A stretch of DNA of 39,525 bases from Gallionellaceae bacterium (GTDB lineage Bacteria > Pseudomonadota > Gammaproteobacteria > Burkholderiales > Thiobacillaceae), in NCBI GenBank assembly GCA_028714875.1, contig JAQTLN010000030.1, forward strand, positions 1 to 39,525, written 5' to 3'. Every line of letters starts with the position of its first letter. Position 1 is the stretch's first letter. The position numbers and the translations under genes were made by a program. Shown here piece by piece: positions 255 through 39,266 of the stretch. Below the pieces are notes generated by a model. The model searched no databases. It was not told the DNA's origin and worked only from the letters and a program-made list of their open reading frames with translations.

Positions 255-914
255 CTACTGGGGCGCGCCGGCCACGAATTGCCAATCCGCGTACTGTCTG
301 CTGCCTTCGAACGCGGCATTTTCCCGAGAGAAGCCGGTGTCTTTTATTGGGGTCGCGCTGGACGGGCTGTGCACGCCCTTGATGCCGCCCTCCTCGTCGC
401 GCAGCAGCGCCCAATCACCACCCGTGATCGGGTCCGGCCATTGGCGGCGCAGGTGGCGCACGGTGCTCGGGAAGCGGGGGTCGCGCGTCAGGTCGGACAG
501 TTTCTTCGGGTAGTGCTTGTCGGGGCTCGGCCCCAGGCGGTAATAGCTGGCGAGGGCGCGGCGATACTGGTCGCCGATGAACAGGAGTTCGGCTTCCTTT
601 TCCCGCTGACTCCGCATGCTCCAGGTCGTGCCCACCGCGGCCAGCAGCAGACCGAGAACCGTCACCAGAAAGAGCAGGCCGAGCAGGGTGAAGCCGGCCT
701 GGTGTGGGGAGCGCCGTAAATCGCCCCCGTAGACCAAGGCTCCATTCGCGTTTGCCGGTGAAGCGATTGGGACAAAGTTTCCCCCCTTTGAAAAAGGGGG
801 GTTAGGGGGGATTTTCGAGGTGGGCGACCAGGCAAATGTTGCCAAATCCCCCTCGGTCCCCCTTTGCAAAAGGGGGAAGCCACGTCCCCTGCCGCTTCGC
901 TTACCAGTCCGCAT
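255..914 (-). CDS. Minor pseudopilin of a type II secretion-like system, repeat-derived leader
   Basis: This is a 219-residue type IV pilin-like protein and the last gene of the secretion operon. The prepilin peptidase motif and hydrophobic helix (AGFTLLGLLFLVTVLGLLLA) lie near residues 67-86. Position +5 of the mature protein is Gly rather than the Glu usual in pilins, a trait otherwise associated with the GspK tip pseudopilin. The soluble part contains a YRRALASYY helix and a Pro/Asp-rich C-terminus as in GspG-like proteins. The chosen ATG at 914 overlaps the previous gene by 14 bases; another in-frame ATG is at 926. From either start, the first roughly 55 codons run through repeat E2, so the leader is unusually long and repeat-encoded. 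A TTG about 13 codons before the cleavage site is an alternative start. The family is clear; the exact role and start are inference. Confidence 0.8.
   Translation of the reverse strand: MRTGKRSGRGRGFPLLQRGTEGDLATFAWSPTSKIPPNPPFSKGGNFVPIASPANANGALVYGGDLRRSPHQAGFTLLGLLFLVTVLGLLLAAVGTTWSMRSQREKEAELLFIGDQYRRALASYYRLGPSPDKHYPKKLSDLTRDPRFPSTVRHLRRQWPDPITGGDWALLRDEEGGIKGVHSPSSATPIKDTGFSRENAAFEGSRQYADWQFVAGAPQ
743..890 (+). repeat. Dispersed palindromic repeat E2 inside a pseudopilin leader
   Basis: This is a full copy. The left arm ends GTTTCCCCCCTTTGAAAAA, then GGGGGGTTAGGGGGGATTT. After a variable core, the right arm reads AAATCCCCCTCGGTCCCCC, then TTTGCAAAAGGGGGAAGCC. It occupies the gap between two pseudopilin cores. 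Read on the minus strand it is open and in frame with the downstream pseudopilin (255-914), encoding peptides such as FPLLQRGTEGDLA and IPPNPPFSKGG. Confidence 0.85.
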
Positions 915-1278
915 AGGGTTTTCCATCCGCGCCCGCACCCGTCGCGCCGCTATGCACGTCGCGCACGCCACCCTCCTCACCCGGTTCGCTCGTCCAGGTG
1001 TCGTTCCGCTCGGTGATCGGGTCGGTCGGCACGTTGCGCAGATAGCGCGCGCCGGCCAGGGTTTCCAGGCTGTCGGGCCAGCGGCCCTTGTCGGCGTTGT
1101 ACTGGTCGAGAGCGTCGCGCAGCGTGGCGAGGTTTTCCCGCAGCACGGCTTCCTTCGAGCGCTCAATGTGCTGGAAATATCGCGGTGTGGCGATGCTGAG
1201 CAGGAGGGCGATGATGGACAGCACCACCAGCAGTTCGACCAGGGTGAAGCCGCGCTTATTTGCCACCCTCTTTACCAT
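901..1278 (-). CDS. GspG-like pseudopilin
   Basis: This 125-residue pseudopilin has a short leader ending KRG, then FTLVELLVVLSIIALLLSIA, with the conserved Glu at mature position 5. The helix continues through PRYFQHIERSKEAVLRENL. The C-terminal part has the GspG-type layout (ALDQYNADKGRWPDSLETL, then a DPITERNDTW segment). The start at 1278 overlaps the upstream pseudopilin stop by 7 bases (ATGGTAA), so the two are translationally coupled. It is the only one of the three distal pseudopilins without a repeat insertion, and so shows the normal leader length (about 10 residues). It probably forms part of the periplasmic pseudopilus. Confidence 0.88.
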   Translation of the reverse strand: MVKRVANKRGFTLVELLVVLSIIALLLSIATPRYFQHIERSKEAVLRENLATLRDALDQYNADKGRWPDSLETLAGARYLRNVPTDPITERNDTWTSEPGEEGGVRDVHSGATGAGADGKPYADW

Positions 1279-1895
1279 TCCCGGTACCTCACACCGTTCA
1301 AGCCGGTTTTCTCCGACAGGGAATGGACATCGAACACGTCCTCGCCCTCCCTGGGATCGTCCGGTGGGCTGGCATAGCTGCGTTTGCCCCAGGTTTCGCT
1401 GGCGCCGACGTCACCCGAGGCGGCGAAAGGATCGCGCGGCAGGCGGCGCAGGAAGTAGATGGGGCGGTGGTCGGGTCGGGTGATGTCGGGCACGCCTTTG
1501 GCCAGAACGTCCAGATTCGGCGGATAGCCGGAGGCGTCGGCCGGGGCTTCGATCTTTTTATCGAGCACGGCCTGCCGGTAACTATCGAGGGCGCCGCGAA
1601 TCTGGCGCAGGGCCAGGCGCAACTCGCCTTCCTTCTGGCGTTGCTGGGTCACTTCCAGCAAGGGCACGGCCATCCAGGCGAGCACGCCGACGATGGCGAT
1701 AGTGACCACCAGTTCGACCAGCGTGAAGCCGCTCAAGGCCCCGTTCGCGCTGGCCGGGGGGCGGGTTCCCCCCTTTTCCAAAGGGGGGTTAGGGGGGATT
1801 TCTGAGACGGTTGCGCGAGCGCATACGTTACAAATCCCCCCCGGCCCCCCTTTGAGAAAGGGGGGAGAAAAAGGCGTCGCCGATTTGAATGTCAT
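1272..1895 (-). CDS. Pseudopilin with repeat-derived N-terminal leader
   Basis: This is a 207-residue pseudopilin. Its core starts at the prepilin peptidase site (LSGFTLVELVVTIAIVGVLA), with Glu at mature position 5. It is followed by a QRQKEGELRLALRQIRGALD helix and a C-terminal domain with a DPFAASGDVGASETWGKRSY segment. The ATG at 1895 overlaps the secretin stop codon as ATGA, the usual coupling in this operon. Between that ATG and the cleavage site lie about 56 residues, most of them encoded by repeat E3 (peptides SPPFLKGGPGGI and IPPNPPLEKGG). Normal leaders here are 9-10 residues. No internal ATG exists; a TTG three codons before the cleavage site would give a leader too short to be convincing. 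Confidence 0.85.
   Translation of the reverse strand: MTFKSATPFSPPFLKGGPGGICNVCARATVSEIPPNPPLEKGGTRPPASANGALSGFTLVELVVTIAIVGVLAWMAVPLLEVTQQRQKEGELRLALRQIRGALDSYRQAVLDKKIEAPADASGYPPNLDVLAKGVPDITRPDHRPIYFLRRLPRDPFAASGDVGASETWGKRSYASPPDDPREGEDVFDVHSLSEKTGLNGVRYREW
1741..1866 (+). repeat. Dispersed palindromic repeat E3 inside a pseudopilin leader
   Basis: This copy has both arms: GGTTCCCCCCTTTTCCAAA then GGGGGGTTAGGGGGGATTT, a variable core, and AAATCCCCCCCGGCC then CCCTTTGAGAAAGGGGGG. Its left flank (CGTTCGCGCTGGCCGG) matches that of E2. It lies between the ATGA-coupled start of the pseudopilin at 1272-1895 and its prepilin cleavage site. Confidence 0.85.
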
Positions 1896-3778
1896 TGCGC
1901 CAGGGGCGGGACCATGACGACGGGGAGCGCCGGTTCGGTCTCGCTGGCGTTTTGTCCGAGCGCCGGGCGGGCGGCGCGCACGCGCAGGGGCTGGTCGCTG
2001 GTCTGGCTTTCGGTGCCGGCGAAGAATTCGCCGTCGGCCAGTTCCGGGCGCTCGATGTTGCGCAGGATGTGCGGGGTGATGGTGAGGATGATCTCGGTCT
2101 TGTTGAGTTCGTCGCGGTTGCTGGAGAACAGGCGGCCGATGAGGGGCAGGTCGCCCAGGCCGGGTACCTTGCTGGCGCCGGCGCGGTCTTCGTCGGAAAT
2201 CAGGCCGGCGAGCACCTGGGTTTCGCCGTCCCTCAGGCGCAGCACGGTATTGGCGTTGCGGCTGCCTAATTGGTAAGTCAGCGTGCCGGTGGCGCTCTTC
2301 ACTTCGCGCACGATGTTGGAGACTTCCATGCCGACCTTGATGGTGACATCGCCCTCCAGCCCCACCTGCGGCTCCACATCGAGCTTGAGGCCGACATCGA
2401 GATAGGCGACCGATTCGGAGGTCACGCCGGTGGAAGTGACGTTGGACGTGATGACCGGCACCTTGTCGCCGATATGGACCTTGGCCTTCTCGCGGCTCTT
2501 CACGCGGATGCGCGGATTGGCGAGGAGATTGACGTCGCTGGCATCTTTTTTCAGGTTGATCACGGCCGTGTTGATGGCGATGGCGTTGGCGTCGATGTTC
2601 TTGAGGCTGCCCAGGGTAAGCTGATTGGTGACCTGCGCCCCGGTCGTGACACTGACCCCGGTGCCAACGGTGGTCGTGGTCTGAGTACCCAGGTTCAAGG
2701 CGCTGAACTGGCTGGGCCACTGCACCCCCAAGTCCTGCAAGCGGCTCCGCTTCACCTCCATGATCTCCACTTCCAGCATCACCTCGGCATCCGGCCGGTC
2801 GGCCATCTGCACTAATTTTTCCGCCAGGCGCACCACTTCCGGGGTATCGCGCACCGCCACCATGTTCAGTTTTTCATCCACATACACGTCCTTGATGCGC
2901 GCCATGGTACGGATCAAGGTCATCACATTCTTGGCGTCGGCGTGGGCGAGGAAGAAGCTTTTCACCACCTGCTCCTGGTAATCCTTCACCTTGTTGGGCT
3001 GGTTAGGGTAGATCAGCACGGTGTTGCCGTTGAGGATTTTCTTCGCCAACTGGCTGGTGGCGAGCAGGGCATCGAGGGCGTCGGCGATGGCGGTGTCGCG
3101 CGCGAACACGGTGGCGCGCTGATCCACCCGCACGTCCTTGTCGAACACGAAATTCAGCCCGGACTGGCGGCTCAACGCGTCGAACACCTGCTTCAGCGGC
3201 GCATCGCGGAATTCCAGGCTGACCGGGCGGCGGTAGCTGGCGCCCAGTTGCGGCATGTCGATGCCGCGCGGTTGCCCCGCCTTCTCCTCGATCTGCTTGA
3301 GCAGGTGTTGCGCCTCCGGGTTGCCTGGTTCCCGCGCCAGCACGGCGCGCAAACGGGCGCGCGCGGCTTCCGGCTCATTCTTCGCCAGGTAATCCGCCGC
3401 CGCCTTCAATAACGTCTGGTTATCCAATTGCACTTGAAGGGTGCCGATGGCGCTGACGATGCGGGCATCGTCGCCATAGCGCAGGGTTAATTCCCGATAG
3501 GCCGCAAGCGTTTCCTCCAGCTTGCCGGCCCGGGCCTGTGCCTCGGCGGCGAGCAGGCCCTTGCGCAACAGCGCCTCGCGCGCCCGGACCAGAGCGGTGC
3601 GGTACTGGGCATTGCCGGGATGCGCGGCCACGGATTTTTCCAGTTCGGCCACCCCGGCCGCGTCCTTACCCTCGGCCAGCAACCTTTCGCCTTCGCGGAA
3701 TGCCGGGTCGCTGGCACAGGCGGCCAGAACAAGGGCCAGCGCGATGGCGACGAGCAACATCAATAACAGCCGTTTCAT
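1892..3778 (-). CDS. Secretin, outer-membrane channel of the type II secretion/type IV pilus family
   Basis: A 628-residue protein predicted to form the outer-membrane exit pore. It begins with a lipoprotein signal (lipobox LAAC, Cys21). Residues about 25-150 are helical and TPR-like, as in MshL/PilQ-type secretins of this architecture. An STN/N0-like segment (SLEFRDAPLKQVFDALSRQS) lies near residue 185. Secretin N-domains follow, and then the secretin core with the signature VPGLGDLPLIGRLFS near residues 538-552, and EIILTITPHI. The tail is Ala/Pro-rich. The start at 3778 overlaps the upstream stop as ATGA, and its own stop overlaps the next start the same way. The lipobox suggests it reaches the outer membrane without a separate pilotin. 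Confidence 0.93.
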   Translation of the reverse strand: MKRLLLMLLVAIALALVLAACASDPAFREGERLLAEGKDAAGVAELEKSVAAHPGNAQYRTALVRAREALLRKGLLAAEAQARAGKLEETLAAYRELTLRYGDDARIVSAIGTLQVQLDNQTLLKAAADYLAKNEPEAARARLRAVLAREPGNPEAQHLLKQIEEKAGQPRGIDMPQLGASYRRPVSLEFRDAPLKQVFDALSRQSGLNFVFDKDVRVDQRATVFARDTAIADALDALLATSQLAKKILNGNTVLIYPNQPNKVKDYQEQVVKSFFLAHADAKNVMTLIRTMARIKDVYVDEKLNMVAVRDTPEVVRLAEKLVQMADRPDAEVMLEVEIMEVKRSRLQDLGVQWPSQFSALNLGTQTTTTVGTGVSVTTGAQVTNQLTLGSLKNIDANAIAINTAVINLKKDASDVNLLANPRIRVKSREKAKVHIGDKVPVITSNVTSTGVTSESVAYLDVGLKLDVEPQVGLEGDVTIKVGMEVSNIVREVKSATGTLTYQLGSRNANTVLRLRDGETQVLAGLISDEDRAGASKVPGLGDLPLIGRLFSSNRDELNKTEIILTITPHILRNIERPELADGEFFAGTESQTSDQPLRVRAARPALGQNASETEPALPVVMVPPLAQ

Positions 3779-4248
3779 GGCGAAATCCTCAAGGTCTGCT
3801 GCATGTTCAAAGCGATCCAGGTGAAGACCAGGGCATCGTCACCGACCTGATCCAGATGCCATCCGGCCAGGGTGTCACCGACTCGCGCTTGCAGCACGCG
3901 GCTGCCCTGATCCAGAAAAATCACGTCCTTGCCGCCCTCTTTCCAACGCCCCAGGTACTGGAACGGCAGGGGTGGCGCCATCGGTGGCGGCGGCGGCAAT
4001 TCCACCCGCTTCGCCGGGGGAGGCGGCGGCGGTTGCCAGGTCTGTGCCGGAAACAGGTCGGCGCGCATGGCGCCGAGCTGGGGCGCGTGCTGAGGGTCGT
4101 GGGCGTCGGCGGCGGGCGCGACCCTCGCCTGCGTGGTCCGCGCTTTCGCCACTGCGCCCACCACCTCCGCCTCTTGCGGCCGGGGCCAGAAAGCCGCGAC
4201 CAGGGTCGCCGCCAGGGCCAGGGCGAGCAGGAGGTGGCGCGGCTTCAT
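3775..4248 (-). CDS. GspC/PilP-like inner-membrane linker protein
   Basis: This 157-residue protein has one N-terminal membrane anchor (LLLALALAATLVAAF), a proline-rich linker (QPPPPPPAKRVELPPPPP) near residues 70-90, and a small C-terminal beta domain with the motif FQYLGRWKEGGKDVIFL and a VGDTLAGWHLDQVGDDALVF segment. That layout matches the homology-region domain of GspC/PilP proteins, which link inner-membrane assembly proteins to the secretin. Its position directly before the secretin, coupled by ATGA on both sides, fits that role. Sequence similarity is weak, so the assignment rests on architecture and position. Confidence 0.75.
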   Translation of the reverse strand: MKPRHLLLALALAATLVAAFWPRPQEAEVVGAVAKARTTQARVAPAADAHDPQHAPQLGAMRADLFPAQTWQPPPPPPAKRVELPPPPPMAPPLPFQYLGRWKEGGKDVIFLDQGSRVLQARVGDTLAGWHLDQVGDDALVFTWIALNMQQTLRISP

Positions 4249-4805
4249 CGCGCCGTCTCCAGGTTCAGCACAAAGCGCAGGCGCGCATCCAGTTCTGTCG
4301 CCGCGATGTCGTCGCGCCGCAGTTCCAGGCTTTCCAGACGCAGCGCAGGGTTGTCGTCGAGCACTTCCGCGAGGAAGGCGCGCAGGGTCGGATAGGGGGC
4401 GATCACCGGCAGATCGATACGCAGAGACTGGCTTTCCCCCGGCTTGCCGGTCTCGGCATAGCGGCCTTCGTCGAGGCTCAAACCGTGATGGCGGGCGGCG
4501 AGGAACAGGCGTGGCAAAGCGGTTTCCACACGCTCACGCGGCACGGCGAGCGGTTTTTTTTGGCGCTCGGCGGGGGTCGGCAGCAGGGCGCGGCTGGCGG
4601 CCACGGACTGGGCGTCCGCGAGGCGCGCTTCCAGGGGCGCGACGAGCAACGGATCGGCGGCCAGAGCGGCCAGCAGCAACACGGCGCCCAGCGCGCCGGG
4701 CCAGCCGAGACGGGCGAGCTGGAACTGGATGCGCGCGGCGGTGGTAGCGCCGGCCTGTGAAGCCGGCGGAACGGGCCGGCGAGACGCCGGCGCACCATTT
4801 TTCAT
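4245..4805 (-). CDS. GspM/PilO-like assembly protein
   Basis: A 186-residue protein with a short cytoplasmic N-terminus, one membrane helix (PGALGAVLLLAALAADPLLV, about residues 36-55), a coiled-coil stretch and a periplasmic ferredoxin-like domain (LRIDLPVIAPYPTLRAFLAE, then LRLESLELRRDD). This is the GspM/PilO layout. The ATG at 4805 overlaps the upstream stop as ATGA, so it is preferred to an ATG four codons earlier. Residues about 3-25 (NGAPASRRPVPPASQ and onward) are encoded by a GC-rich palindromic repeat at 4744-4797, so the cytoplasmic tail appears to be a repeat insertion. It probably pairs with the GspL/PilM-like protein upstream. Confidence 0.8.
   Translation of the reverse strand: MKNGAPASRRPVPPASQAGATTAARIQFQLARLGWPGALGAVLLLAALAADPLLVAPLEARLADAQSVAASRALLPTPAERQKKPLAVPRERVETALPRLFLAARHHGLSLDEGRYAETGKPGESQSLRIDLPVIAPYPTLRAFLAEVLDDNPALRLESLELRRDDIAATELDARLRFVLNLETAR
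4744..4797. repeat. GC-rich palindromic repeat (GCCGGC family) in the GspM-like gene
   Basis: Four GCCGGC-type cores are arranged as two hairpins (GCCGGCCTGTGAAGCCGGC and GGGCCGGCGAGACGCCGGC). Shorter relatives occur at 18897-18913 and 21473-21489. It is in frame directly after the coupled ATG at 4805. Confidence 0.7.
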
Positions 4806-6013
4806 GGCTGCCCCCAATCCAGTCGAATCTCGAAGCGCACCGGCTGCCGCTCGGTTTCAAGCTGAACTTCATGCTGGACCAGGGTGGCATCGCCAAAACC
4901 GGCCGCGCGCAAGCTGTCGAACCAAGCCAGCATGTCGGCCGTGCCGCGCGCCTCGGCGGTGATGCGCGCTTCGCCACGCGCGGCGTCGCCGCGCAGGGAC
5001 AACAGCGCGATCTGTTTCGGCAGCTGGCTTTCCAGGCGGTTGAGCAGTTCGCCCCAGGGCCGCGCCGGGGTGGCCACGATGCCGCGCTCAGGGCGCGGCT
5101 TGGCGACCGCGGGGGGGGCCGTGACGGTCAAGGTGGCGAGTTGTTCCGCCAGCGTCGCCTGACGCGCGCCGACCAGGGCGGTCAGCCCGATGCCCGCCGC
5201 CAACAGCAGCCAGGCCGCCGCCGGTGGACGTGGCCGGGTTTGCAGAAAATCGGGTTCAGCGCGCCCGGAAAGGACGGCGGTCTCGGCGGCATTGGCGAGG
5301 ACACGGACACCAGGCCAGTCGCCGGCCACGCCGGCGCCGACCAGGAGCGAAGGCGCGACCCCGAGGCCATCGACCAAGGCGGCGCGCGCCAACAGGCCGG
5401 CCAGCGCCTCCGACTCGCCACGCGTGCTGTCGAGCGCGACCAGCGCGCCGCGTTGCAGGCTGGCCAGCGTGATCCGCCCGCTTTCCAGCAAGGCCAGGCG
5501 CGCCGTGCCGCTTTTTCCATAGCGAGCCAGGGCCAGCGCCGGCCAGGAGGTCACGGAAGCGATGCCGAGGCCCGCGCCTGTCAGGGTGTGCATGAGTTCC
5601 GCCCACTGGCCGCTATCCAAGCCGGATGCCAGGAGGGGTTCGCCCACCGGGGCGGGGCGAAAGGCGAGGCGCCAGTTGGCGGACAGTTCGCCGAAGCGTT
5701 CCGCCGCCTGACTTTCCACCCAGCCTCGGGTTTCCTCATGGTTCAAGCGGGTGGGTGCGCCGGGCAGCAGCCAGAGCGGGGCGAAATGCGAGGACAACAC
5801 GACGGCCACGCGGCCGCTCGGCTGGTGCGTATCCAGCAGGTTTTGCAGCGCGGCGAGCGCGCCGGGCCAACCGGGGGTGAGTGGCAATACCTGGCGCAAA
5901 GACGCCGGCGCCTCGCCCGCCGTCAGGCGCCCCCCGCGCGCGCGCAGGACGACGCGGTCTGGGCCGAGGTAGAGAGTGGCTGGTGTGAACAAATCAGCCC
6001 ACGAACGTGACAC
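4802..6013 (-). CDS. GspL/PilM-PilN-like assembly platform protein
   Basis: This is a 403-residue protein. The first about 240 residues look like the actin-like cytoplasmic domain of GspL/PilM (LFTPATLYLGPDRVVLRARG, LALLESGRITLASLQRGALV). One membrane helix follows (AAWLLLAAGIGLTALVGARQ, near 260-280), then a PilN/GspL-like periplasmic part. It would recruit the GspE ATPase to the inner-membrane platform. I chose the GTG at 6013 because GGAGG lies 9 bases upstream (6027-6023). An ATG at 6040 in the same frame is possible but has no such site. The gene overlaps the end of the ATPase gene by 20 bases and is coupled by ATGA to the next gene. Confidence 0.82.
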   Translation of the reverse strand: MSRSWADLFTPATLYLGPDRVVLRARGGRLTAGEAPASLRQVLPLTPGWPGALAALQNLLDTHQPSGRVAVVLSSHFAPLWLLPGAPTRLNHEETRGWVESQAAERFGELSANWRLAFRPAPVGEPLLASGLDSGQWAELMHTLTGAGLGIASVTSWPALALARYGKSGTARLALLESGRITLASLQRGALVALDSTRGESEALAGLLARAALVDGLGVAPSLLVGAGVAGDWPGVRVLANAAETAVLSGRAEPDFLQTRPRPPAAAWLLLAAGIGLTALVGARQATLAEQLATLTVTAPPAVAKPRPERGIVATPARPWGELLNRLESQLPKQIALLSLRGDAARGEARITAEARGTADMLAWFDSLRAAGFGDATLVQHEVQLETERQPVRFEIRLDWGQP

Positions 6014-7649
6014 GGTTCGCTTCCTCCAGTGTGGTTTCACCCTGCCGCACCAGATCGAGGGCGGCTTCGCGCAGGGGGCGCACGCCGGCGCGGGCGGCGG
6101 CTTCCTTGACCTGGCGGATGGGCGCGCGGGCGACGATGAGTTCGCGCAGTTCGTCGTTCAGGCGCATCAGTTCGGCGATGGCGCGGCGGCCCTTGTAGCC
6201 GCTGCCGCGACAGTGGGCGCAGCCGGGGCCGGCGTGGAAGTTCCAGCCTTCGCCGCCGTGGATGCCCGAGAGCGCCAGCAATTCGCCATCCGGCGTCACC
6301 GGCACACTGCAACGCGGGCAGTTGACCCGCACCAGGCGCTGCGCCAGGACGCCGTTGAGCGCGGAAACCAGGCTGTAAGGATCGACCCCCATGTGCATGA
6401 AGCGGCCGATCACGTCGAACACGTTGTTGGCGTGCACGGTGGTGAATACCAGATGGCCGGTGAGCGCGGACTGGATGGCGATCTGCGCGGTCTCCGGGTC
6501 GCGGATCTCGCCGACCATGATCTTGTCCGGGTCGTGGCGCAGGATGGAGCGGAGGCCGCGCGCGAAGGTCAGGCCCTTCTTCTCGTTGACCGGAATCTGC
6601 AACACGCCGGACAACTGGTATTCCACCGGGTCTTCGATGGTGATGATCTTGTCGCGCCCGGTATTGATCTCGGAGAGCGCCGCGTAAAGCGTCGTCGTCT
6701 TGCCGGAACCGGTGGGGCCGGTGACCAGGAACATGCCGTAGGGCTCGCGCGCCAGGCGCCGGATGGCGGTCAGGGCGGCGCCCGCGAAGCCGAGTCGTTC
6801 CAGGGTGATGCCGGAGAGTTCGTCGTCGAGTTGCTGGCGGTCGAGCACGCGCAGCACGGCATCCTCGCCGAATACGCCGGGCATGATGGAGACGCGGATG
6901 TCCACCTCGCGGCCGCGCAACTTCACCTTGAAGCGGCCGTCCTGCGGGATGCGCCGCTCGGCGATGTCCAGTTCGGCCATCACCTTCACCCGCGAGATCA
7001 CCTGTTCCGCCATCTCGCGCCCGGCGGGCTGGGCGATGCGGTTGAGCACACCGTCGATGCGGTACTTGATGGTCAGGCCCTGGGCATCGTTTTCCAGGTG
7101 GATGTCGGAAGCGCCGCTGGAGAGCGCGTCATACAGCGTGGAGTGCACCAGCTTGATCACCGGCGAAGCGTCGGCGCCGATGGCTTGTAGCGAAAGCTCC
7201 TCGGCGCGGCCATCGTCGCCGCCCACGGCGGCTTCACCCAGCATGCCGTCCATCGCCTTGAGGTTCACCTCCAGGCGATGCAGCCAGGCCAGGATGTCCT
7301 CGCTCCGCGCCAGGGCGGGCCGGAAGGCGAAGTTGAGGCGGCGTTCCGCCCACTCCAGCACCTCGGGCTTGAGCGGATCGGCGAACACGAACCAGAGATT
7401 GCCGTCGCCATCACGGCAGGCGGCGCACTCACGCGCCAGGGACTGCGCGAACGGCAACAGGTCGAAGGCCGGCGCCATATCGCGCAAGTTCGCCATGTCC
7501 AGCGCCGGATAGGAAAACGCCTCGGCCAGCGCGCGCATGAAAGCCTTGCCGTCCAGCCCGGAGAGACGCTCCAGCACGGCCAGCGCGGTTTCGCCATGGA
7601 TGAGGGCTTGTTCCCGCGCCTGGCGGACGAGGTCAGAGGTGATGGTCAT
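5994..7649 (-). CDS. GspE/PilB-type secretion ATPase
   Basis: This 551-residue cytoplasmic ATPase powers pseudopilus assembly. An N-terminal GspE-like domain (residues about 1-170) contains ALAEAFSYPALDMANL. The catalytic core has Walker A GPTGSGKTTT near residue 310, the Asp box (IITIEDPVEYQLSGV), Walker B IMVGEIRDPETA near 375, and the His box (GHLVFTTVHANN). A zinc-binding tetracysteine motif (CPRC and, about 30 residues later, CAHC) is typical of GspE. I chose the ATG at 7649 (MTITSD). The frame is open further upstream to 7832, but that stretch is repeat E4 sequence. No strong ribosome binding site precedes 7649, so coupling from the bridge ORF ending at 7660 may matter. Confidence 0.95.
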   Translation of the reverse strand: MTITSDLVRQAREQALIHGETALAVLERLSGLDGKAFMRALAEAFSYPALDMANLRDMAPAFDLLPFAQSLARECAACRDGDGNLWFVFADPLKPEVLEWAERRLNFAFRPALARSEDILAWLHRLEVNLKAMDGMLGEAAVGGDDGRAEELSLQAIGADASPVIKLVHSTLYDALSSGASDIHLENDAQGLTIKYRIDGVLNRIAQPAGREMAEQVISRVKVMAELDIAERRIPQDGRFKVKLRGREVDIRVSIMPGVFGEDAVLRVLDRQQLDDELSGITLERLGFAGAALTAIRRLAREPYGMFLVTGPTGSGKTTTLYAALSEINTGRDKIITIEDPVEYQLSGVLQIPVNEKKGLTFARGLRSILRHDPDKIMVGEIRDPETAQIAIQSALTGHLVFTTVHANNVFDVIGRFMHMGVDPYSLVSALNGVLAQRLVRVNCPRCSVPVTPDGELLALSGIHGGEGWNFHAGPGCAHCRGSGYKGRRAIAELMRLNDELRELIVARAPIRQVKEAAARAGVRPLREAALDLVRQGETTLEEANRVTFVG

Positions 7650-7659
7650 GGGCGTGTGG

Positions 7660-7860
7660 TCAACCTGAAATTGCTCGACGAGTGGGGTGGCGCTCCCCCC
7701 TTTTCCAAAGGGGGGCTGGGGGGGATTTATCCAAGGACCGCGCAACCGCAACCGTTGCCAAATCCCCCTCACTCCCCCTTTGATAAAGGGGGAAGGCGCT
7801 TGCGCCGGCACCTGCGCCGAAATCAACGCCACGCGGGGGAGTGATCATGCCGTGCTTCAT
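7660..7860 (-). CDS. Repeat-derived bridge ORF between GspF and GspE
   Basis: A 66-codon frame starts with an ATG that overlaps the gspF stop as ATGA (7857-7860). It runs through repeat E4 (AFPLYQRGSEGDLA, PPAPLWKRGER) and stops at 7660, ten bases before the GspE start at 7649. The peptide has no recognisable domain and is mostly repeat translation. It is listed because the start and stop positions match the coupling pattern of the operon. Whether a stable protein is made is unknown. Confidence 0.35.
   Translation of the reverse strand: MKHGMITPPRGVDFGAGAGASAFPLYQRGSEGDLATVAVARSLDKSPPAPLWKRGERHPTRRAISG
7690..7797 (+). repeat. Dispersed palindromic repeat E4 between GspF and GspE
   Basis: The left arm is CTCCCCCCTTTTCCAAAG then GGGGGCTGGGGGGGATTT. 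The right arm is AAATCCCCCTCACTCCCCC then TTTGATAAAGGGGGAAGG. It fills the junction between the gspF stop (7857) and the GspE start (7649). Confidence 0.85.
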
Positions 7861-9041
7861 TCGATGCTCCCCGCCAATTCAAAGATGGGCAGATACAGCA
7901 ACACGACGATGCCGCCGACCAGCACGCCGATGACGGCCATCAACAGGGGCTCGAAGACGCGGGTGAAGCTTTCCACGAAGCGGCTGGTTTCCTCGTCGTG
8001 GAAGCTGGCGAGGTTTTCCATCATCTCACCCATCTGTCCGCTTTTTTCCCCGACCCGCAGCAGGCGCGCGGCCACCGGCGTGGTGAGGCCGGCCTGTTGC
8101 ATGGCTTCGGATATGGGCTGGCCGGCGCGGATGTGGCCGGCGGCGACCGCCACCCGCGCGCGCAATTCCAGCGACAGGAGGCCCGCCGCCATGTCCAGGG
8201 CGGGCAGGATGGGGGTGCCGCCGGACAGCAACATGCCCACGGTGCGGTAGAAACGGGTGAGCTGGAATACCCGCAAACGCTCGCCCAGGCCGGGAAGGCG
8301 CCAGGCCAGACGCGCCACGGCGGCGCGCGCGGCGGGAAGGGTGGTGGCCCAAGCCAGGGCAGCCAGGGTGCCCACAAAAGCGAGGGCGGCGCCCAGCCCA
8401 TGCGCGTCGATCCAGGCGCCCAGGCCCATCAAGGCGCGCGAGGCCCAGGGCAGGCGCGCCAGGTTGTCGGCATAGATGGAGGCGAAGCGCGGCGTGACGA
8501 AGCCGATCAGGAACAGCGCCACCAGCCCACCCAGCACCAGCAGCATGAGCGGATAGATAGATGCGGAAATCACACTACGCCGCACCACGTCCACCCGTTC
8601 CTGCCAGGCGACATAGCGCGCCAGGGCGGGCGCCAGATCGCCGCTCTTTTCGGCGGCGCGCACGCTGGCGGCATAGAGGGCGGGAAACACGGCGGGGAAA
8701 TGGCCGAGGGCGACGGAGAAGGCCTCGCCTTGATTGATCCGTTCCAGCACCCCGCTCAGCACCTGGCGCGGTTCGTTGCGGGTTTCCTTTTCCAGCAGGG
8801 TTTGCAGGGCCTCGATCAGCGCCAGGCCGCTGGAAAGCAGCGCCAGGAGTTCGCGCGTGAACAGCAGCAGGGGAAAACGCGAGCGCCGGGAGAACAGGGT
8901 GTTCAGTCCCCGCTCGGGCCGCACCGCCAGCACGGTCAGGCCCTCGCCCCGCGCCTGTGTCGCCGCCTCCGCGGCCGTGGCGGCTTCCAGGCGCAGGCTG
9001 ACGCGACCGGCGGCATTGAGGGCGCGGACCTGGAAGATCAT
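7857..9041 (-). CDS. GspF/PilC-type inner-membrane platform protein
   Basis: This 394-residue polytopic protein has two GspF domains. The first (FSRRSRFPLLLFTRELLALL, LETLL-type helices) starts near residue 55 and the second (FQLTRFYRTVGMLLSGG) near residue 255. Three membrane segments are visible: YPLMLLVLGGLVALFLIGFV, LGAALAFVGTLAALAWATT, and the C-terminal LLMAVIGVLVGGIVVLLYLP. The family forms the inner-membrane base of the pseudopilus and contacts GspE. The start at 9041 overlaps the stop of the repeat-derived ORF 9038-9256 as ATGA, and its own stop overlaps the next small ORF by ATGA. Confidence 0.95.
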   Translation of the reverse strand: MIFQVRALNAAGRVSLRLEAATAAEAATQARGEGLTVLAVRPERGLNTLFSRRSRFPLLLFTRELLALLSSGLALIEALQTLLEKETRNEPRQVLSGVLERINQGEAFSVALGHFPAVFPALYAASVRAAEKSGDLAPALARYVAWQERVDVVRRSVISASIYPLMLLVLGGLVALFLIGFVTPRFASIYADNLARLPWASRALMGLGAWIDAHGLGAALAFVGTLAALAWATTLPAARAAVARLAWRLPGLGERLRVFQLTRFYRTVGMLLSGGTPILPALDMAAGLLSLELRARVAVAAGHIRAGQPISEAMQQAGLTTPVAARLLRVGEKSGQMGEMMENLASFHDEETSRFVESFTRVFEPLLMAVIGVLVGGIVVLLYLPIFELAGSIE

Positions 9042-9256
9042 GAGGTGGAGATCCCCCCCTTTTTCAAAGGGGGGTTAGGGGGGATTTCCGAGACGGCCGC
9101 ACAGGCACACGTCGCTAAATCCCCCTCAGTCCCCCTTTGAAAAAGTGGGAAGTCACCTTCCCATCGGCTTTCGCGCATATCGCCAGCTAACGCGAAAATC
9201 CCCCCCCGCCCCCCTTTGAAAAAGGGGGGAGTCAGCCCGATTTGTTCGCGAGTCAT
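9038..9256 (-). CDS. Repeat-derived bridge ORF coupled by ATGA at both ends
   Basis: A 72-codon frame made almost wholly of repeat E5. Its ATG (9256) overlaps the GspG-like stop as ATGA, and its TGA (9038) overlaps the GspF start as ATGA. Peptides include LTPPFFKGGRGGI, DFPLFQRGTEGDLA and IPPNPPLKKGG. It therefore restores an unbroken chain of stop/start overlaps across a roughly 190-bp insertion. No domain or signal sequence is visible. It could be a non-functional by-product of translation that serves only to deliver ribosomes to gspF. Confidence 0.4.
   Translation of the reverse strand: MTREQIGLTPPFFKGGRGGIFALAGDMRESRWEGDFPLFQRGTEGDLATCACAAVSEIPPNPPLKKGGISTS
9052..9235 (+). repeat. Dispersed palindromic repeat E5, compound copy
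   Basis: This copy has the usual two arms (9052-9090 and 9115-9150), the tail TTTCGCGCATATCGCCAGC, and then an extra arm, AAAATCCCCCCCCGCCCC followed by TTTGAAAAAGGGGGGAG, at 9197-9235. It looks like one and a half elements joined. It lies between the GspG-like gene and gspF. Confidence 0.85.
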
Positions 9257-9672
9257 TGCCAGCTCACGATGTCGGCGTCTTCGCCGTTGCCGCCGGCCTG
9301 GCCGTCGCGGCCGAAGGACCAGAGGTCGTATTCGCCGTGTTCACCCGGCGCGCGGTATTGGTAGGGATGCCCCCAGGGATCGTTGGGCACGGCTTTTCTC
9401 AGATACGGTCCCTGCCAGCGGCTCTCCCCGGAGGGTTGTGCGTCAAGCGCGGCGAGGCCCGACTGGGAGGCCGGGTAATGCCCCACGTCGAGGCGGTATT
9501 GGTCGAGGGCGTCTTCCAGCGCCTTGATCTGCGCGCGCGCCACCTTCACTTCGGATTTGCCCACCTGGGCGAAATAGCGCGGCGCCACATAGCTGACCAG
9601 CAAGCCGAGAATGACCAGGACGACCAGCAGTTCGAGCAGGGTGAAGCCGGCGGCGCGGGAAGGGATTTTCAT
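9253..9672 (-). CDS. GspG-type major pseudopilin
   Basis: This 139-residue pseudopilin has the short leader MKIPSRAAG, then FTLLELLVVLVILGLLVSYV with Glu at mature position 5. The C-terminal domain is typical of GspG (ALDQYRLDVGHYPASQSGL, then YLRKAVPNDPWGHPYQYR and YDLWSFGRDGQAGG). It is probably the main subunit of the pseudopilus. The start at 9672 lies 5 bases after the stop of the outer-membrane protein gene; the frame is open further upstream but only in antiphase to that gene. Its stop overlaps the next ATG as ATGA. The family match is the strongest of the four pseudopilins. Confidence 0.93.
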   Translation of the reverse strand: MKIPSRAAGFTLLELLVVLVILGLLVSYVAPRYFAQVGKSEVKVARAQIKALEDALDQYRLDVGHYPASQSGLAALDAQPSGESRWQGPYLRKAVPNDPWGHPYQYRAPGEHGEYDLWSFGRDGQAGGNGEDADIVSWQ

Positions 9673-10475: not shown

Positions 10476-11870
10476 CTAATCATGTCTTTCAACCCGTTCC
10501 GGCCTTTCCACCCTCTCGGGGGCTTCCACTCGTTCAGGCTTCTCGATTTTTTCCGGCTTCTCCACCTTTTCCGGCTTTTCTATTTTCTCAGGTTTCTCCA
10601 CCTTCTCGGGCTTCTCCACCTTCTCGGGCTTTTCGACCTTCTCGACCCTTTCGATCGTGTCGCTCTTTTCGAATTTGGTCTTGTCCGGCGTTTCCTTCGC
10701 CTCGGGCTTCTCCTGTTTTTCCGAACTTCCGCCGGAGGCCTCACGCTCCCGCTTTTCTTGCGAGGATTGCTTGCCCGGCCCCTCATAGCGGGTCGCGTCC
10801 GGGCGCATGGCGTCGAAGCGCACGGCTTCCAGAGCACCATGCTCATGGGTCACCACTTCCACCCGGACCCACTGCCCCGGCTCGGCGGTGACCGCCAGCC
10901 CGGCCTTGACGGACATGCGCGCGTAGCCGAGATCCAGCAGCGCCGGCCCGGCGCCGTGTTGCACCACGCCCTGCAAGATCAGCCGCTCCGGCTGCGCCGG
11001 GAATGCCAGCGCGGGCGCGACGCGGGTCTGGCTCACCCTAAGTACCCCGTTCTCCAGGACGCCGGACAGACGCACCTCCTGGCCGGGTGGCAGCGGCTTC
11101 GCGCTGATGACATTGAGCTGGCCGATGCGCCCCACATTGCCGGTTTGGTAATCCAGCGGCGCCGTCACCGACACCCGCGCCCTGGGGCTGATGTGTTGCA
11201 CCAGGGTGGCCCGCACGTTGCCCGCCGTATCGCGCAGGCCGCTGACCCGGATGAAATCGCCCACCTTGGGCGGATGGCCGCGCGCGCCCCCCAGGAGTCC
11301 ACCATCCGGCGCCATCCGCACCCGCTGCCCCATCGCCATGAAGCCGTCGCCATCGGGCGAAACCCAGTCGACCGGCCCGACCAGCGCGGAAATCAGGGCG
11401 ATGCGGCGCGCCCTCAGCGTGTTGCCGCTACCCTCCGCCTCAACTGAAACCAGTTGGCCGATGGCGAGCTGCCCGCTGTGGCCGCTTTCGCCATCGACAC
11501 TGACCGGAGTATTCGCGTCGTAAGTCACGCGCAGGCCATTGACGCAGATGCTGCCGAAACCGGTGATGACGCCCACGATTCCGGTGCCGCCCATGCCTTT
11601 GCCGTCCGCGCGCAGCCCGGTACCACCACTGCCACTGCCGTCGTGGCCGGTACCGCCCATGCCGGAGCCATCAGCGTCGTGGCCTGTCCCCCCCGTGCCC
11701 GTGCCATCACCACCGTGGCCGGTGCCTCCCGAACCTGTGCCGTCACCCTGGTGGCCGCTTCCCCCCATGCCTCCGCCATCCAGGTTCAGGCCGGGCAGCG
11801 AACAGGGGTTGGCGTGGGCGCCGCCCGCGAAGAACAGGAAGCCGGCCAGCAGCAGGCTCATGCATCGCAT
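10476..11870 (-). CDS. DUF5666 domain protein with Gly-rich head and Lys/Glu/Pro repeat tail
   Basis: This 464-residue exported protein has a signal peptide (MSLLLAGFLFFAGGAHA) and a Gly/Thr/His-rich repeat region (GGTGHGGDGTGTGGTGHD) to about residue 95. DUF5666-type beta modules follow (GFGSICVNGLRVTYDANTPV, GQLVSVEAEGSGNTLRARRI, DFIRVSGLRDTAGNVRATLV). A charged tail from about residue 370 ends in tandem EKPEKVEKPEKIEKPE units. DUF5666 proteins are secreted and of unknown function. The ATG at 11870 shares one base with the DUF6502 stop (TGATG), so the pair is coupled. The head and tail are encoded by short tandem DNA repeats, so lengths probably vary between strains. Confidence 0.85.
   Translation of the reverse strand: MRCMSLLLAGFLFFAGGAHANPCSLPGLNLDGGGMGGSGHQGDGTGSGGTGHGGDGTGTGGTGHDADGSGMGGTGHDGSGSGGTGLRADGKGMGGTGIVGVITGFGSICVNGLRVTYDANTPVSVDGESGHSGQLAIGQLVSVEAEGSGNTLRARRIALISALVGPVDWVSPDGDGFMAMGQRVRMAPDGGLLGGARGHPPKVGDFIRVSGLRDTAGNVRATLVQHISPRARVSVTAPLDYQTGNVGRIGQLNVISAKPLPPGQEVRLSGVLENGVLRVSQTRVAPALAFPAQPERLILQGVVQHGAGPALLDLGYARMSVKAGLAVTAEPGQWVRVEVVTHEHGALEAVRFDAMRPDATRYEGPGKQSSQEKREREASGGSSEKQEKPEAKETPDKTKFEKSDTIERVEKVEKPEKVEKPEKVEKPEKIEKPEKVEKPEKIEKPERVEAPERVERPERVERHD
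10495..10650. repeat. Tandem repeat coding for EKPEKV/EKPEKI units
   Basis: On the plus strand, 18-base units of the type TTCTCCACCTTCTCGGGC recur with small changes (TTTTCC, TTCTCA, TTCGACC variants). They encode the charged C-terminal tail of the DUF5666 protein. Confidence 0.85.
11590..11775. repeat. Degenerate tandem repeat coding for GGTGHDG units
   Basis: Units of about 30 bases with CCGGTACCACC- or CCGGTGCCTCC-like cores alternate with GCCATCACCACCGTGG-like stretches. They encode the Gly/His/Asp-rich head of the DUF5666 protein. Confidence 0.75.
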
Positions 11871-12733
11871 CAGCGGTTTTCTCCGCGCTTCGCCATGGCC
11901 TCTTCCGCGTAGTAGTAGACGCCGAAGGTCATGCGCTGGCTGGCGCCTTCCTGGCCCAGGTCCGCTTCCTGCAATTGCAGTGCGCGGCGGTTGATCTCCT
12001 GCATGGCGTCGATCGCCAGTTCGCGCGAGAGGGCGCGCAGGGTCGCGAGCGACGCCGGCGACAGGCCATCGCAATACACGCTGCGTTCCAGGAAGGGCGG
12101 CTGGCCGTCGAGCAGGTTGTGCGTCGCCGCCGCCAGGTGGTCGCCGATGTTCTTGCCCAGATAGAAGCTTTTCTCGTCCAGCCCGCGCGCCGGCACGAAA
12201 GCATGTTCGACCAGATGCACGCGGTCTTCGCCATCCAGCGTCACCACCCCCAGACGCAGCCATTCATCGAGCACGGCGCGCGGGCGGATGTCCTTGCTGA
12301 CGCTTTCCACCAGGCGCTCGAACGACACCGCGCCACCCTGGCTGGCGGAACGCGGCAGTGCCACGGGATGACGCTGGCTATCGAGATAAGCGGCATCGGC
12401 GCACCAGCGCGAGACCACTTGTGCGCCCAGGGACACCACCGGCGAAGGCGGCATCTGCAACAACATTTCCTCACGCAAGCGCTTGACCTCGCGGCGGTGC
12501 ACTCCGGACAGCAGGCTCACCCGGCTGTCCGTGACCGTGCCGCCGTCATCAGGGAAATCGCGCGCGGCGACATCCACGAACACGCCCTTGGCCAGGTCGC
12601 AGAACGCCACGTAATTGACACCATGGGCCATCAGCAGACGCGCCAGCGGACGCAACAAGCGCTGCACCGCCTGCAACAACCTGGGCGAGGTGACTAGAGA
12701 AGCGTGGGGGAGCAAATCCCGATTCGAGTTCAT
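11870..12733 (-). CDS. DUF6502 protein, probable HTH regulator at the head of the operon
   Basis: This 287-residue cytoplasmic protein has no signal peptide. It has the DUF6502 layout: an N-terminal helical region (LLRPLARLLMAHGVNYVAFC), then DLAKGVFVDVAARDF and a helix-turn-helix-like segment (TDSRVSLLSGVHRREVKRLR, residues about 68-87). The C-terminal part includes EKSFYLGKNIGDHLAAATHN. It shares a base with the DUF5666 start. This pairing recurs in betaproteobacteria, and the HTH-like part suggests DNA binding; both statements are recalled knowledge plus inference. As the first gene after an inverted repeat at 12778-12792, it could control the whole secretion operon. The ATG at 12733 has only a weak ribosome binding site. 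Confidence 0.85.
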   Translation of the reverse strand: MNSNRDLLPHASLVTSPRLLQAVQRLLRPLARLLMAHGVNYVAFCDLAKGVFVDVAARDFPDDGGTVTDSRVSLLSGVHRREVKRLREEMLLQMPPSPVVSLGAQVVSRWCADAAYLDSQRHPVALPRSASQGGAVSFERLVESVSKDIRPRAVLDEWLRLGVVTLDGEDRVHLVEHAFVPARGLDEKSFYLGKNIGDHLAAATHNLLDGQPPFLERSVYCDGLSPASLATLRALSRELAIDAMQEINRRALQLQEADLGQEGASQRMTFGVYYYAEEAMAKRGENR

Positions 12734-16045: not shown

Positions 16046-16206
16046 GCCCTACCCCCCGCTTGCCCAAAGGGGGGTTGGGATACCGAAGGGTAGGGGCTTT
16101 ATCAGAGATTTAGCGACGTTTACCTGAGCCACCGCCTCAGAAATCCCCCCTGCCCCCCCTTTGGTAAAGGGGGGAACCACTACTCCAACCGCATCACCAG
16201 TTAACG
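16046..16206 (-). repeat. Dispersed palindromic repeat E6, reverse orientation
   Basis: In reverse complement it begins TTAACTGGTGATGCGGTTGG, the same left extension as E8 (37591 on). The left arm follows with GGTTCCCCCCTTTACCAAAG. The right arm is diverged and contains CCCAACCCCCCTTTGGGC. It separates hslU from the deaminase gene. Confidence 0.85.
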
Positions 16207-21491: not shown

Positions 21492-21535
21492 ACCACGTTC
21501 TGGGTTGCTTCGGCACCAGGGATAACCCAGACACC

Positions 21536-21637
21536 TTCCCCCTTTTTCAAAGGGGGAGTGAGGGGGATTTAGCAACGGTCGCGGTCGTGCAAGCCACAAA
21601 CAAATCCCCCCCTGCCCCCCTTTGAAAAAGGGGGGAG
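21536..21637 (-). repeat. Dispersed palindromic repeat E7, reverse orientation
   Basis: The arms are CCCCCTTTTTCAAAGGGGG with AGTGAGGGGGATTTAGC, and AAATCCCCCCCTGCCCC with CCTTTGAAAAAGGGGGGAG. The copy is inverted relative to E1-E5. It lies between the stop of the OmpA-like gene (21648) and the LOG gene. Confidence 0.85.
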
Positions 21638-37047: not shown

Positions 37048-37170
37048 GGCGCGCGCGTGGGATGTGGTGAGGGACGAACCGCATCGAACCATGACCAGCC
37101 ACAAGAGGTGGTTCGCCGCGCCCCGACATAAACGGAGCTAACCAGAACTGGTAGAAAAATCTTTTCGGCA
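37048..37170. other. Intergenic region after polA
   Basis: Short stretch after polA. A weak inverted repeat (GAACCA/TGGTTC, about 37086-37114) could act as a partial terminator. Nothing else is supported. Confidence 0.35.
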
Positions 37171-37186
37171 TTAAGTGTTCGTTAAG
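37170..37186 (+). promoter_or_regulatory. Direct-repeat box TTAAG-N6-TTAAG, copy 1
   Basis: Two TTAAG half-sites start 11 bases apart (37171 and 37182). Spacing of about one helical turn is typical of OmpR-family regulators, and the pattern resembles the PmrA/QseB box (TTAA with 5-6 base spacers). The same box lies at 38962-38977, before copy 2 of the gene. Confidence 0.5.
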
Positions 37187-37263
37187 TCTTGCCGCGAATA
37201 ATGGCACTCACCGAACGCCACCTGACGCCCGGTAGTTCAACCCCACACCCTCTGGAGCCACAC

Positions 37264-37461
37264 ATGAACAAGACCCTGATCGCCCTGCTGACCGCCGCTT
37301 CCTTCCTGACCATCGCCGGCGCCCAAGCCGCTGACAAGCCCATGGACAAGCCCGCCGCCGAAGCCGCTTCCCCCGCCGATGCCGGCGCCAAGCCCGCCAA
37401 GCACGTCAAGAAAGTCAAGCACACCAAGAAAGCCAAAAAAGCTGCCGAAGCCGCCAAGTAA
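37264..37461 (+). CDS. Small lysine-rich exported protein, copy 1
   Basis: This 65-residue protein has a Sec signal (LIALLTAASFLTIAGAQAA) and a mature part of about 42 residues, rich in Lys, Ala and Pro (DKPMDKPAAEAASPADAGAK, then KHVKKVKHTKKAKK). Composition and layout recall the acid-shock protein Asr, but no homology is claimed. The start has GGAG 7 bases upstream. It has its own TTAAG box and a perfect terminator. A second copy lies 1.8 kb downstream with 8 or fewer amino-acid changes, all in the basic tail. Confidence 0.85.
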   Translation: MNKTLIALLTAASFLTIAGAQAADKPMDKPAAEAASPADAGAKPAKHVKKVKHTKKAKKAAEAAK

Positions 37462-37473
37462 TCGGTTTCTCGC

Positions 37474-37509
37474 AAAAAAGCCGGGCGACGCGAGTCGCCC
37501 GGCTTTTTT
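37474..37509 (+). terminator. Rho-independent terminator, copy 1
   Basis: AAAAAAGCCGGGCGAC with its perfect complement around a GCGA tetraloop, ending in TTTTTT. The A-flanked stem is bidirectional. It lies 12 bases after the stop of the lysine-rich gene. Confidence 0.95.
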
Positions 37510-38765: not shown

Positions 38766-38961
38766 TGTTGAATTACCCTGTCTTGGTTTTATTGGTTACT
38801 TGACCAGCGCCTGTCGCCAGCCAGCCTGGAACTTACACCAGCACAGGCCTGGCGGTCTTCCTCAGAATGTGGCGGTAACCGGTCTCGCACTCAGGTCTTG
38901 CTCAGGCCTTGGCGACAACGGACTCGCCGTCGCGGTGAATCTTGTGCCAGTGGATGGCGAA

Positions 38962-38977: not shown

Positions 38978-39054
38978 TCTTGACATGAATAATGGCACTC
39001 ACCGAACGCCACCTGACGCCCGGTAGTTCAACCCCACACCCTCTGGAGCCACAC

Positions 39055-39252: not shown

Positions 39253-39266
39253 TCGGCTTCAAGCTT

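Follow-up and report, generated by a model that had tools for sequence, protein, structure and literature searches.

Two described kinds of repeat, the mycobacterial interspersed repetitive units (MIRUs) and the Rickettsia palindromic elements (RPEs), come close to the element analysed here, and the available portions of these two accounts are the only close matches found in the literature on bridging or relay ORFs and such repeats (PMC12548453, PMC10969869). MIRUs, the closest known case, are described in the available portion of their source as short dispersed repeats with an ORF that couples to the following gene at a spacing of -4, and their insertion is regarded there as nearly harmless to the downstream gene thanks to this ORF (PMC12548453). 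RPEs, as presented in the accessible part of the account, are palindromic repeats lying in frame within protein-coding genes (PMC10969869).

The E repeat is a short palindromic repeat spread through a Hydrogenophilales-type genome. Its arms are two inverted copies with the consensus CTcCCCCCTTT...AAAGGGGGgAG, and hundreds of such hairpins are present, with a patchy distribution among close species. The dispersed, paired inverted hairpins recall REP/BIME elements; unlike these, no E hairpin (up to 2 mismatches) lies at any of the five Y1 (RAYT) transposase loci of the genome, within the 3.2–3.4 kb fetched for each. Similarly, the terminal inverted repeats of E are MITE-like, but no target-site duplication is seen, direct repeats in the 20-nt flanks of 40 full copies being no commoner than in mispaired controls. 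No Rfam family reached the gathering threshold in a search of the window (the whole stretch of 39,525 nt that was analysed), and five E core strings sought in literature text gave no match.

The distribution of E was followed over 1.64 Mb, a 40% sample of the genome that is non-random, taking long contigs first and then the first 20–40 kb of the others. It holds 122 E clusters, 13 of which lie at stretch edges and were dropped. The majority are intergenic, and copies also occur in convergent and divergent gaps and within genes. Wholly inside gene calls and in frame are 18/122 clusters (9/66 and 12/46 in two congeners); recurring peptides such as PPFxKGGxGGI, PPxxKGG and FPLxQRG are seen, but all three frame positions occur. 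One such copy lies within the linker that joins the paired ATPase domains in an ABC protein, and another separates two conserved stretches in a molybdopterin oxidoreductase. E thus resembles RPEs as they are described in the available portion of the account; unlike RPEs, E is chiefly intergenic and not tied to a single frame.

Four E junctions in a type II secretion-like operon

Four E copies of the window (E2–E5) lie at junctions of a type II secretion-like operon read on the minus strand, and two further copies lie at other same-strand junctions:

255–914, minus strand: coupling frame across E2, an in-frame fusion with the last pseudopilin-like gene of the operon
780–880: E2 repeat, two hairpin arms, cores 782–800 and 858–876
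901–1278, minus strand: pseudopilin upstream of E2 (PF07963, PF08334)
1272–1895, minus strand: coupling frame across E3; ATG 1895 overlaps the gspD stop (ATGA), and the frame continues into the next pseudopilin
1767–1867: E3 repeat, cores 1769–1787 and 1846–1864
1892–3778, minus strand: secretin, gspD-like (PF00263)
5994–7649, minus strand: gspE-like ATPase (PF00437), ATG 7649
7660–7860, minus strand: E4 relay ORF, 66 aa; ATG 7860 overlaps the gspF stop (ATGA), and the frame ends 10 nt before gspE
7693–7795: E4 repeat, cores 7696–7714 and 7774–7792
7857–9041, minus strand: gspF-like inner-membrane protein (PF00482), ATG 9041
9038–9256, minus strand: E5 relay ORF, 72 aa; ATG 9256 overlaps the gspG stop (ATGA), and the frame ends in an ATGA overlap with gspF
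9053–9231: E5 repeat, three arms, cores 9055–9073, 9131–9149 (imperfect) and 9210–9228
9253–9672, minus strand: gspG-like major pseudopilin (PF08334, TIGR01710)
16054–16173: further E at a same-strand junction, bridged from an ATG at -8 by a frame ending 6 nt before the called start
21535–21637: further E at a same-strand junction, an exception whose GTG frame stops inside E

The coupling frame crosses the repeat stop-free at all four operon junctions, and the endings given in the first-pass annotation are confirmed: the E2 and E3 frames run into the next gene, the E5 frame closes in an ATGA overlap and the E4 frame falls ten bases short. The same annotation had the ATG overlapping the upstream stop in every case, which holds for E3, E4 and E5 and fails at E2, where the ATG at 914 comes 11 nt before the pseudopilin stop TAA (901–903). 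The E2 coupling frame taken whole has no Pfam or NCBIfam match at E 0.01, and its product is judged probably pilin-like from a GFTL motif and weak similarity to other pseudopilins. In the E3 coupling frame the N-methylation motif match begins only at residue 55, and an internal start closer to this motif may be used. Between the upstream stop and the end of E, 2, 2, 1 and 1 of the three sense frames are open at the four junctions, giving a chance of (2/3)(2/3)(1/3)(1/3), about 0.05, that the coupling frame is open at all of them. The four window junctions alone are thus marginal evidence, and it is the genome-wide tests that take the pattern well beyond chance.

Frame bridging and phase across genomes

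The genome-wide set comprises 60 same-strand E junctions with gaps of 50–400 nt, 9 of 69 E junctions having been dropped as outside this range. Bridging was scored from ATG or GTG starts overlapping the upstream stop (TTG was excluded here and included in the phase test), with gene starts from a simple codon-score caller, to which phase is robust and the exact +4 class less so. Such a start is present at 31 junctions, 23 of which bridge, where shuffling of the gaps predicts 8.8 (P 1.8e-9); ten of these frames end exactly at +4, eight within 15 nt, and five are fused in frame. Restriction to ATG sharpens the figures to 19/21 against 7.05 expected (P 1.5e-9). In the remaining two frames, bridging occurs at only 1 and 4 of these 31 junctions, and at the 29 E junctions without an overlapping ATG or GTG the corresponding frame bridges in 4 and the +1 frame in 7. 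Exceptions are thus the 8 of 31 junctions where an overlapping start is not followed by bridging and the 29 of 60 that have no such start. The first-pass annotation would have been contradicted by coupling-frame stops as frequent as expected by chance; over the 40% of the genome sampled, this was not what was found.

Both congeners, G317 and G320, sampled around E copies, agree more weakly. In G317, 16/25 E junctions bridge (P 0.002), with a weaker frame control (bridging occurs at 5/25 and 6/25 in the remaining two frames, and at 7/16 junctions lacking the start in the same frame). In G320 the count is 4/7 (P 0.03; ATG only 3/6, P 0.08), the other two frames each bridging 2 of 7. Junctions of the own genome without E also exceed expectation (33/76 against 23), so the relay effect is not peculiar to E; in the comparison with other repeats, 21/478 non-E gaps with 2–3 other hits were assigned to neither class. 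Shine-Dalgarno-like 4-mers before the downstream start offer no clear separation of classes, being found at 7/18 bridging, non-fused E junctions and 7/29 without an overlapping ATG or GTG, and at 15/23 bridging non-E junctions and 141/310 without the start.

Phase gives a second measure, obtained without shuffles. Among E junctions with DTGA (ATGA, GTGA or TTGA) at both ends, pooled over three genomes, 30/43 are in relay phase (P 1.1e-6). Where the upstream stop has no DTGA, phase preference is not significant (19/45 with E, 105/337 without). At 27 of the 43 double-DTGA junctions the frame is both in phase and open to +4, and in the own genome 10/31 frames end exactly at +4; in this subset of E copies, as in the available description of MIRUs, an ORF overlaps both the upstream stop and the downstream start. 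Each hop of a +4 relay has the common -4 geometry of termination-reinitiation coupling, with start and stop within a few nucleotides at bridging junctions. Plain ATGA coupling has one overlap, whereas a relay has two in succession, separated by a throw-away ORF.

Orthologous junctions and the origin of the relays

At the two junctions followed closely, most repeat-free relatives display a plain short overlap. Within the genus, pdxA-ksgA has a 4-nt overlap in 15/19 evaluable genomes and pilD-coaE a 4- or 1-nt overlap in 16/21, while at the junction before tsaB all 7 expanded junctions (9 evaluable genomes) end at +4, whether they contain E, repeats of another kind or a mere 10 nt (where the upstream homologue was missing, the locus was left out: 3/22 for ksgA, 0/21 for coaE and 12/21 for tsaB). 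A single overlap becomes two DTGA sites in the orthologues, with both flanking genes intact, and other, unrelated palindromic families occupy the same kind of relay, with the double DTGA before tsaB and coaE. Between the own genome and its sister G321, measured from common anchors, the gaps of seven junctions differ by 21, 36, 18 (the pseudopilin gap), 33, 24, 30 and 0 nt, all multiples of 3, although two of these comparisons are in-frame fusions, in which a difference divisible by 3 is expected in any case, and several of the junctions are related by descent. Departures are also found: pilD-coaE of G321 retains E and has lost the -1 start, and at gspF-gspE the frame of one relative stops 40 nt short, among the matches listed.

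These E junctions were probably stop/start overlaps that have been kept as translated relays, frame-breaking changes being mostly lost. The proposal of the first-pass annotation that selection favours repeats preserving ribosome flow is well supported by the frame, phase and orthologue tests, where the flow itself would follow from the geometry.

MIRUs are reportedly inserted at DTGA sites. Targeted insertion of this type at DTGA overlaps, with duplication of the DTGA, would leave both genes intact and make the relay a by-product. This is an unlikely origin, with some signs in its favour: the single overlap turned into two DTGA sites between intact genes, the unrelated repeats before tsaB and coaE with the same double DTGA, and a mild enrichment of E at DTGA stops in two of three genomes (odds ratios 1.7, P 0.04; 3.2, P 0.001; 0.85, P 0.8). 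However, duplication alone predicts one third of junctions in phase, not the 30/43 observed. At the 31 own-genome junctions E lies at anything from 13 to 132 nt from the upstream stop, the sequences after the left and right DTGA of 26 E relays are no more alike than mispaired controls, the flanks of the 40 full copies have no excess of direct repeats, and E is not confined to such overlaps, as its copies in convergent and divergent gaps and in genes attest. A search of the 56 relays that end at +4, of which 26 hold E, revealed no tandem or target-site duplication beyond chance that would account for the double DTGA.

The first-pass annotation had also suggested that E carries its own stop-free bridging frame, linking neighbours wherever it lands, which is highly improbable. 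The in-frame copies inside gene calls, with their recurring peptides, are what such an element would leave. Across 52 full copies, however, 132/312 frames are open (42%), a share no higher than that of random intergenic 96-mers (512/1254, 41%), and shuffles of E itself are open in 57% of frames. Bridging relays use all three E frame positions (13, 7 and 3), and bridging without an overlapping ATG or GTG is restricted to the 4/29 cases of the own genome, though it reaches 7/16 in G317. On this openness, which does not exceed that of random intergenic DNA, an element-borne frame is rejected. The variable flanks, this ordinary openness and the several unrelated families in such relays also set E apart from MIRUs, in which, according to the available part of the source, the repeat itself carries the ORF, with fixed ends; the host belongs to a different phylum, and the likeness rests on description, not on sequence. 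Taken together, the tests favour selection acting on the junction over a frame carried by E.

Chance or artefact, with high-G+C gaps often open and start calls biased to overlaps, has very little probability left: open frames are common at 63% G+C, the four window cases alone reach only about 0.05 and the G317 control frames bridge rather often, but the internal frame controls, the phase test, the controls lacking DTGA and the conservation of phase between species all stand against it. It is equally hard to credit that the relay ORFs are genuine genes for small proteins that serve some function, since, complete as they are from start to stop codon (between 5 and 72 codons, with one above 100, among the cases read), the E4 and E5 ORFs have no Pfam or NCBIfam match and unrelated sequences occupy the same junction in different species.

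Proposed translation through the repeat and its possible consequences

Selection on the junction would operate on an E copy lying between two genes once joined by a DTGA overlap. The ribosome finishing the first gene would restart on the overlapping start codon and make a meaningless peptide across E, melting the E hairpins on its way. The relay would end on the start of the next gene in a second DTGA overlap, a few bases short of it, or inside the gene in frame. Insertions that break the frame, and later changes of length, would mostly disappear, since termination-reinitiation fails across untranslated gaps of tens of bases. The gap would have to be bridged since coupling depends on distance, a spacing of about 20 nt nearly abolishing it in the available portion of the source (PMC10666635). 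Junctions beyond those followed would share this history.

The relays may be one instance of a general outcome, in which many unrelated palindromic families entering stop/start overlaps persist preferentially as translated relays with DTGA at each end; this extension is tentative, its chances somewhat short of even. If general, operons would acquire long spacers that look intergenic and are structured, yet are translated, and the genome would serve as nature's record of the distances that a terminating ribosome cannot cover.

Repeats between coupled genes seem, from their sequences, to be tolerated by being translated through. If this is true, coupling by stop/start overlap is important enough for mobile repeats to be filtered according to their reading frame, as many natural insertions would show, and the observation made on MIRUs would apply in a second, unrelated phylum and to repeats of several unrelated families. 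It would also account for otherwise odd short ORFs, as well as for long N-terminal leaders, and would provide a comparative-genomics test of the disputed long-distance scanning of ribosomes after termination.

Structure, abundance and distribution of the E repeat

The E repeat is a short dispersed palindrome with two inverted arms, each composed of a CCCCCTTTnnnAAAGGGGG hairpin and, on its inner side, GGGGGATTT; the distance between hairpin starts is mostly 75-78 nt. The window derives from a 4.08 Mb genome, and its closest named relatives are assemblies from metagenomes that carry the labels Hydrogenophilales, Pseudomonadota, Betaproteobacteria and uncultured proteobacterium. This genome displays 780 E hairpins at up to two mismatches, against 2 for a reversed control pattern. 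At up to one mismatch it contains 580 and four congeners contain 356, 256, 211 and 164. At this threshold hairpins are absent from 7 of 23 genomes in the genus and present in 37 of 117 in the family. Junctions were analysed in a non-random sample of 1,639,525 bp of this genome, window included, in which our own codon-score caller identified 1,317 genes. The sample yields 246 E hairpins in 122 clusters, located in same-strand (67), convergent (13) and divergent (5) gaps, overlapping a gene call (24) or at an edge (13). A local hot spot is observed at C17:20000-38500 (the initial 40 kb of this contig carries 28 hairpins), where several copies occupy consecutive junctions of a cluster that appears hydrogenase-like by eye. 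At junctions such as C1:159907-160067 and C2:180400-180539 the next start follows the 3′ end of E (GGGGGGAG) after 2 and 6 nt, respectively, and this end may act as a Shine-Dalgarno-like sequence for the downstream gene. No description of E came to light in the consulted literature on Thiobacillus or Hydrogenophilales repeats or in papers searched for the repeat strings. The window also contains:

37170-37469 and 38961-39260: 300-nt direct duplication, 93% identical
37475-37509 and 39267-39301: identical 35-nt palindrome after each 300-nt copy
10531-10713: low-complexity repeat within the minus-strand protein at 10476-12263, coding for KPEKVEKPE-like residues

Reading frames across E at coupled junctions

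Copies E2-E5 are positioned in a minus-strand operon of gspG-, gspF-, gspE- and secretin-like genes and more pseudopilins. At each junction the first-pass annotation described an ATG overlapping the upstream stop ahead of the repeat and opening a frame that crosses it without a stop. This layout holds at all four, except that at E2 the ATG precedes the upstream stop by 11 nt. Given the open sense frames per junction, the chance that all four coupling frames are open is ~0.05, and the window alone is therefore unconvincing. Transcripts of the E5 (gspG-gspF) and E4 (gspF-gspE) junctions fold better than shuffled sequences (z -4.5 and -3.4, respectively).

E is present at 69 of 1,009 same-strand junctions in the sample, 60 of them with a gap of 50-400 nt. 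The upstream stop is overlapped by ATG or GTG at 31 of these 60, compared with 76 of 386 non-E junctions in the same gap range. The frame opened by this start crosses the repeat and reaches the next gene (a bridging relay) at 23 of the 31 junctions, against 8.8 expected from gap shuffles (P 1.8e-9), which agrees with the proposal that the coupling frame is kept open more often than by chance. Ten of these relays end exactly in an ATGA, GTGA or TTGA (DTGA) overlap with the next start (+4), eight end within 15 nt and five are fused in frame. With ATG only, bridging reaches 19/21 (7.05 expected from shuffled gaps, P 1.5e-9). Those 31 junctions bridge 1 and 4 times in their two remaining frames, and the 29 E junctions without an overlapping ATG or GTG bridge 4 times in the coupling frame, 7 in +1 and 1 in the third.

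The further suggestion that the element carries its own bridging frame is not supported, as 132 of 312 E frames are open (42%, 52 full copies) compared with 41% of random intergenic 96-mers. E lies in frame wholly within gene calls in 18/122 clusters here and in 9/66 and 12/46 in congeners; one such copy lies in the linker of an ABC protein, between its two ATPase domains, and another has a conserved stretch of a molybdopterin oxidoreductase on either side.

Replication in congeners and relays of other repeat families

Two congeners, G317 and G320, were sampled non-randomly as stretches surrounding E copies. Bridging was observed at 16/25 junctions in G317 (9.6 expected, P 0.0018; ATG only 8/9, P 0.003) and at 4/7 in G320 (1.5 expected, P 0.03; ATG only 3/6, P 0.08). 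Frame controls separate less clearly in these congeners, where the alternative frames bridge 5 and 6 of 25 and 2 and 2 of 7 junctions, respectively; 7/16 G317 E junctions without an overlapping start also bridge. A phase test, independent of shuffles and of exact start calls, places 30 of 43 double-DTGA E junctions of the three genomes in relay phase against one third expected (P 1.1e-6), with 27 of the 30 open to the end; like the bridging statistics, this value ignores the kinship of junctions common to several congeners. By genome the counts are 11/18 (P 0.014), 16/20 (P 2.5e-5) and 3/5 (P 0.2). All E junctions with an upstream-stop DTGA, a 50-400 nt gap and any next start give 39/73 (P 3e-4), and controls without that DTGA show no departure from one third (19/45 with E, 105/337 without). 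Double-DTGA junctions lacking E display an excess too (52/105, P 4e-4).

Relay occupancy is not peculiar to E, and relays in relatives are occupied by different repeats. Among non-E gaps of 30-600 nt in the own genome, 153/478 hold sequence present at ≥4 other places. Those with an upstream-stop DTGA are in relay phase in 33/64 cases (P 0.002), just 22/64 bridging, compared with 29/89 in phase without DTGA and 35/88 for unique gaps with DTGA (P 0.12). Visual inspection revealed at least four more families of dispersed palindromes (CTCCCTCCCCC-, GTAGCGCCGGC-, GTAGGATGTGGTGAGC- and GTAGGTTGGGC-type) in double-DTGA open relays, with examples (gaps 67-142 nt) at:

C1:244251-244387
C10:22271-22407
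C13:24299-24420
C21:17330-17430

Orthologous junctions and a proposed mechanism

Within the genus, 15/19 evaluable genomes join pdxA and ksgA by a plain 4-nt overlap, and 16/21 join pilD and coaE by an overlap of 4 or 1 nt; in the own genome E lies inside both gaps (160 and 190 nt) and both relays end at +4. The junction upstream of tsaB overlaps in 2/9 evaluable genomes, and the remaining seven, some related by descent and some with TTG starts, without exception show relays that end at +4 across gaps of 10 to 301 nt containing E, other repeats or nothing. At gspG-gspF, the frame ends at +4 in 5/6 close-clade genomes (the own genome among the six), across gaps of 214, 193, 370, 73 and 37 nt that are congruent modulo 3 throughout. 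In the sixth it stops 3 nt short of the start, and the more distant L020 carries a TAA stop and lacks such a frame. The six gspF-gspE frames comprise two at +4, two ending 10 nt before the start, one fused and one 40 nt short. Among the wider relatives listed, gspE mostly begins at an ATG or GTG overlapping the gspF stop, and thus the insert here would lie within the old gspE 5′ end. At gspD-pseudopilin (E3) the frame enters the pilin in 6/6 close-clade genomes, through unrelated sequence.

Seven junctions measured between common anchors show length differences of 21, 36, 18, 33, 24, 30 and 0 nt between the own genome and sister G321. Every one is a multiple of 3, as are the differences of the own tsaB upstream gap from three other genomes. 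G321 provides two exceptions, the pilD-coaE start being lost and the ksgA relay stopping 2 nt before the start. TsaB of G321, G320 and G088 (L279-L285) gives two matches ~60 nt apart within one open-frame length, broken at residue ~105, which suggests an in-frame insertion at the same site in three congeners.

In published reporter work (PMC10666635), ~20 nt separating stop and start almost abolishes coupling, and a structured 100-300 nt insert should therefore uncouple genes unless translated. The relay would replace one long hop by two short hops. Mycobacterial MIRUs, described in a 2025 review (PMC12548453) as apparently mobile repeats inserted at start codons, with an ORF that is coupled to the following gene at -4, follow an identical working principle; in contrast to these, the E relay is not element-borne and several families use such relays. 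Rickettsia palindromic elements, as covered in a review (PMC10969869), parallel the in-gene E copies. Flanking duplications, a possible origin of the DTGA at both ends, do not exceed chance. Selection would eliminate insertions or changes in length that disrupt the relay.
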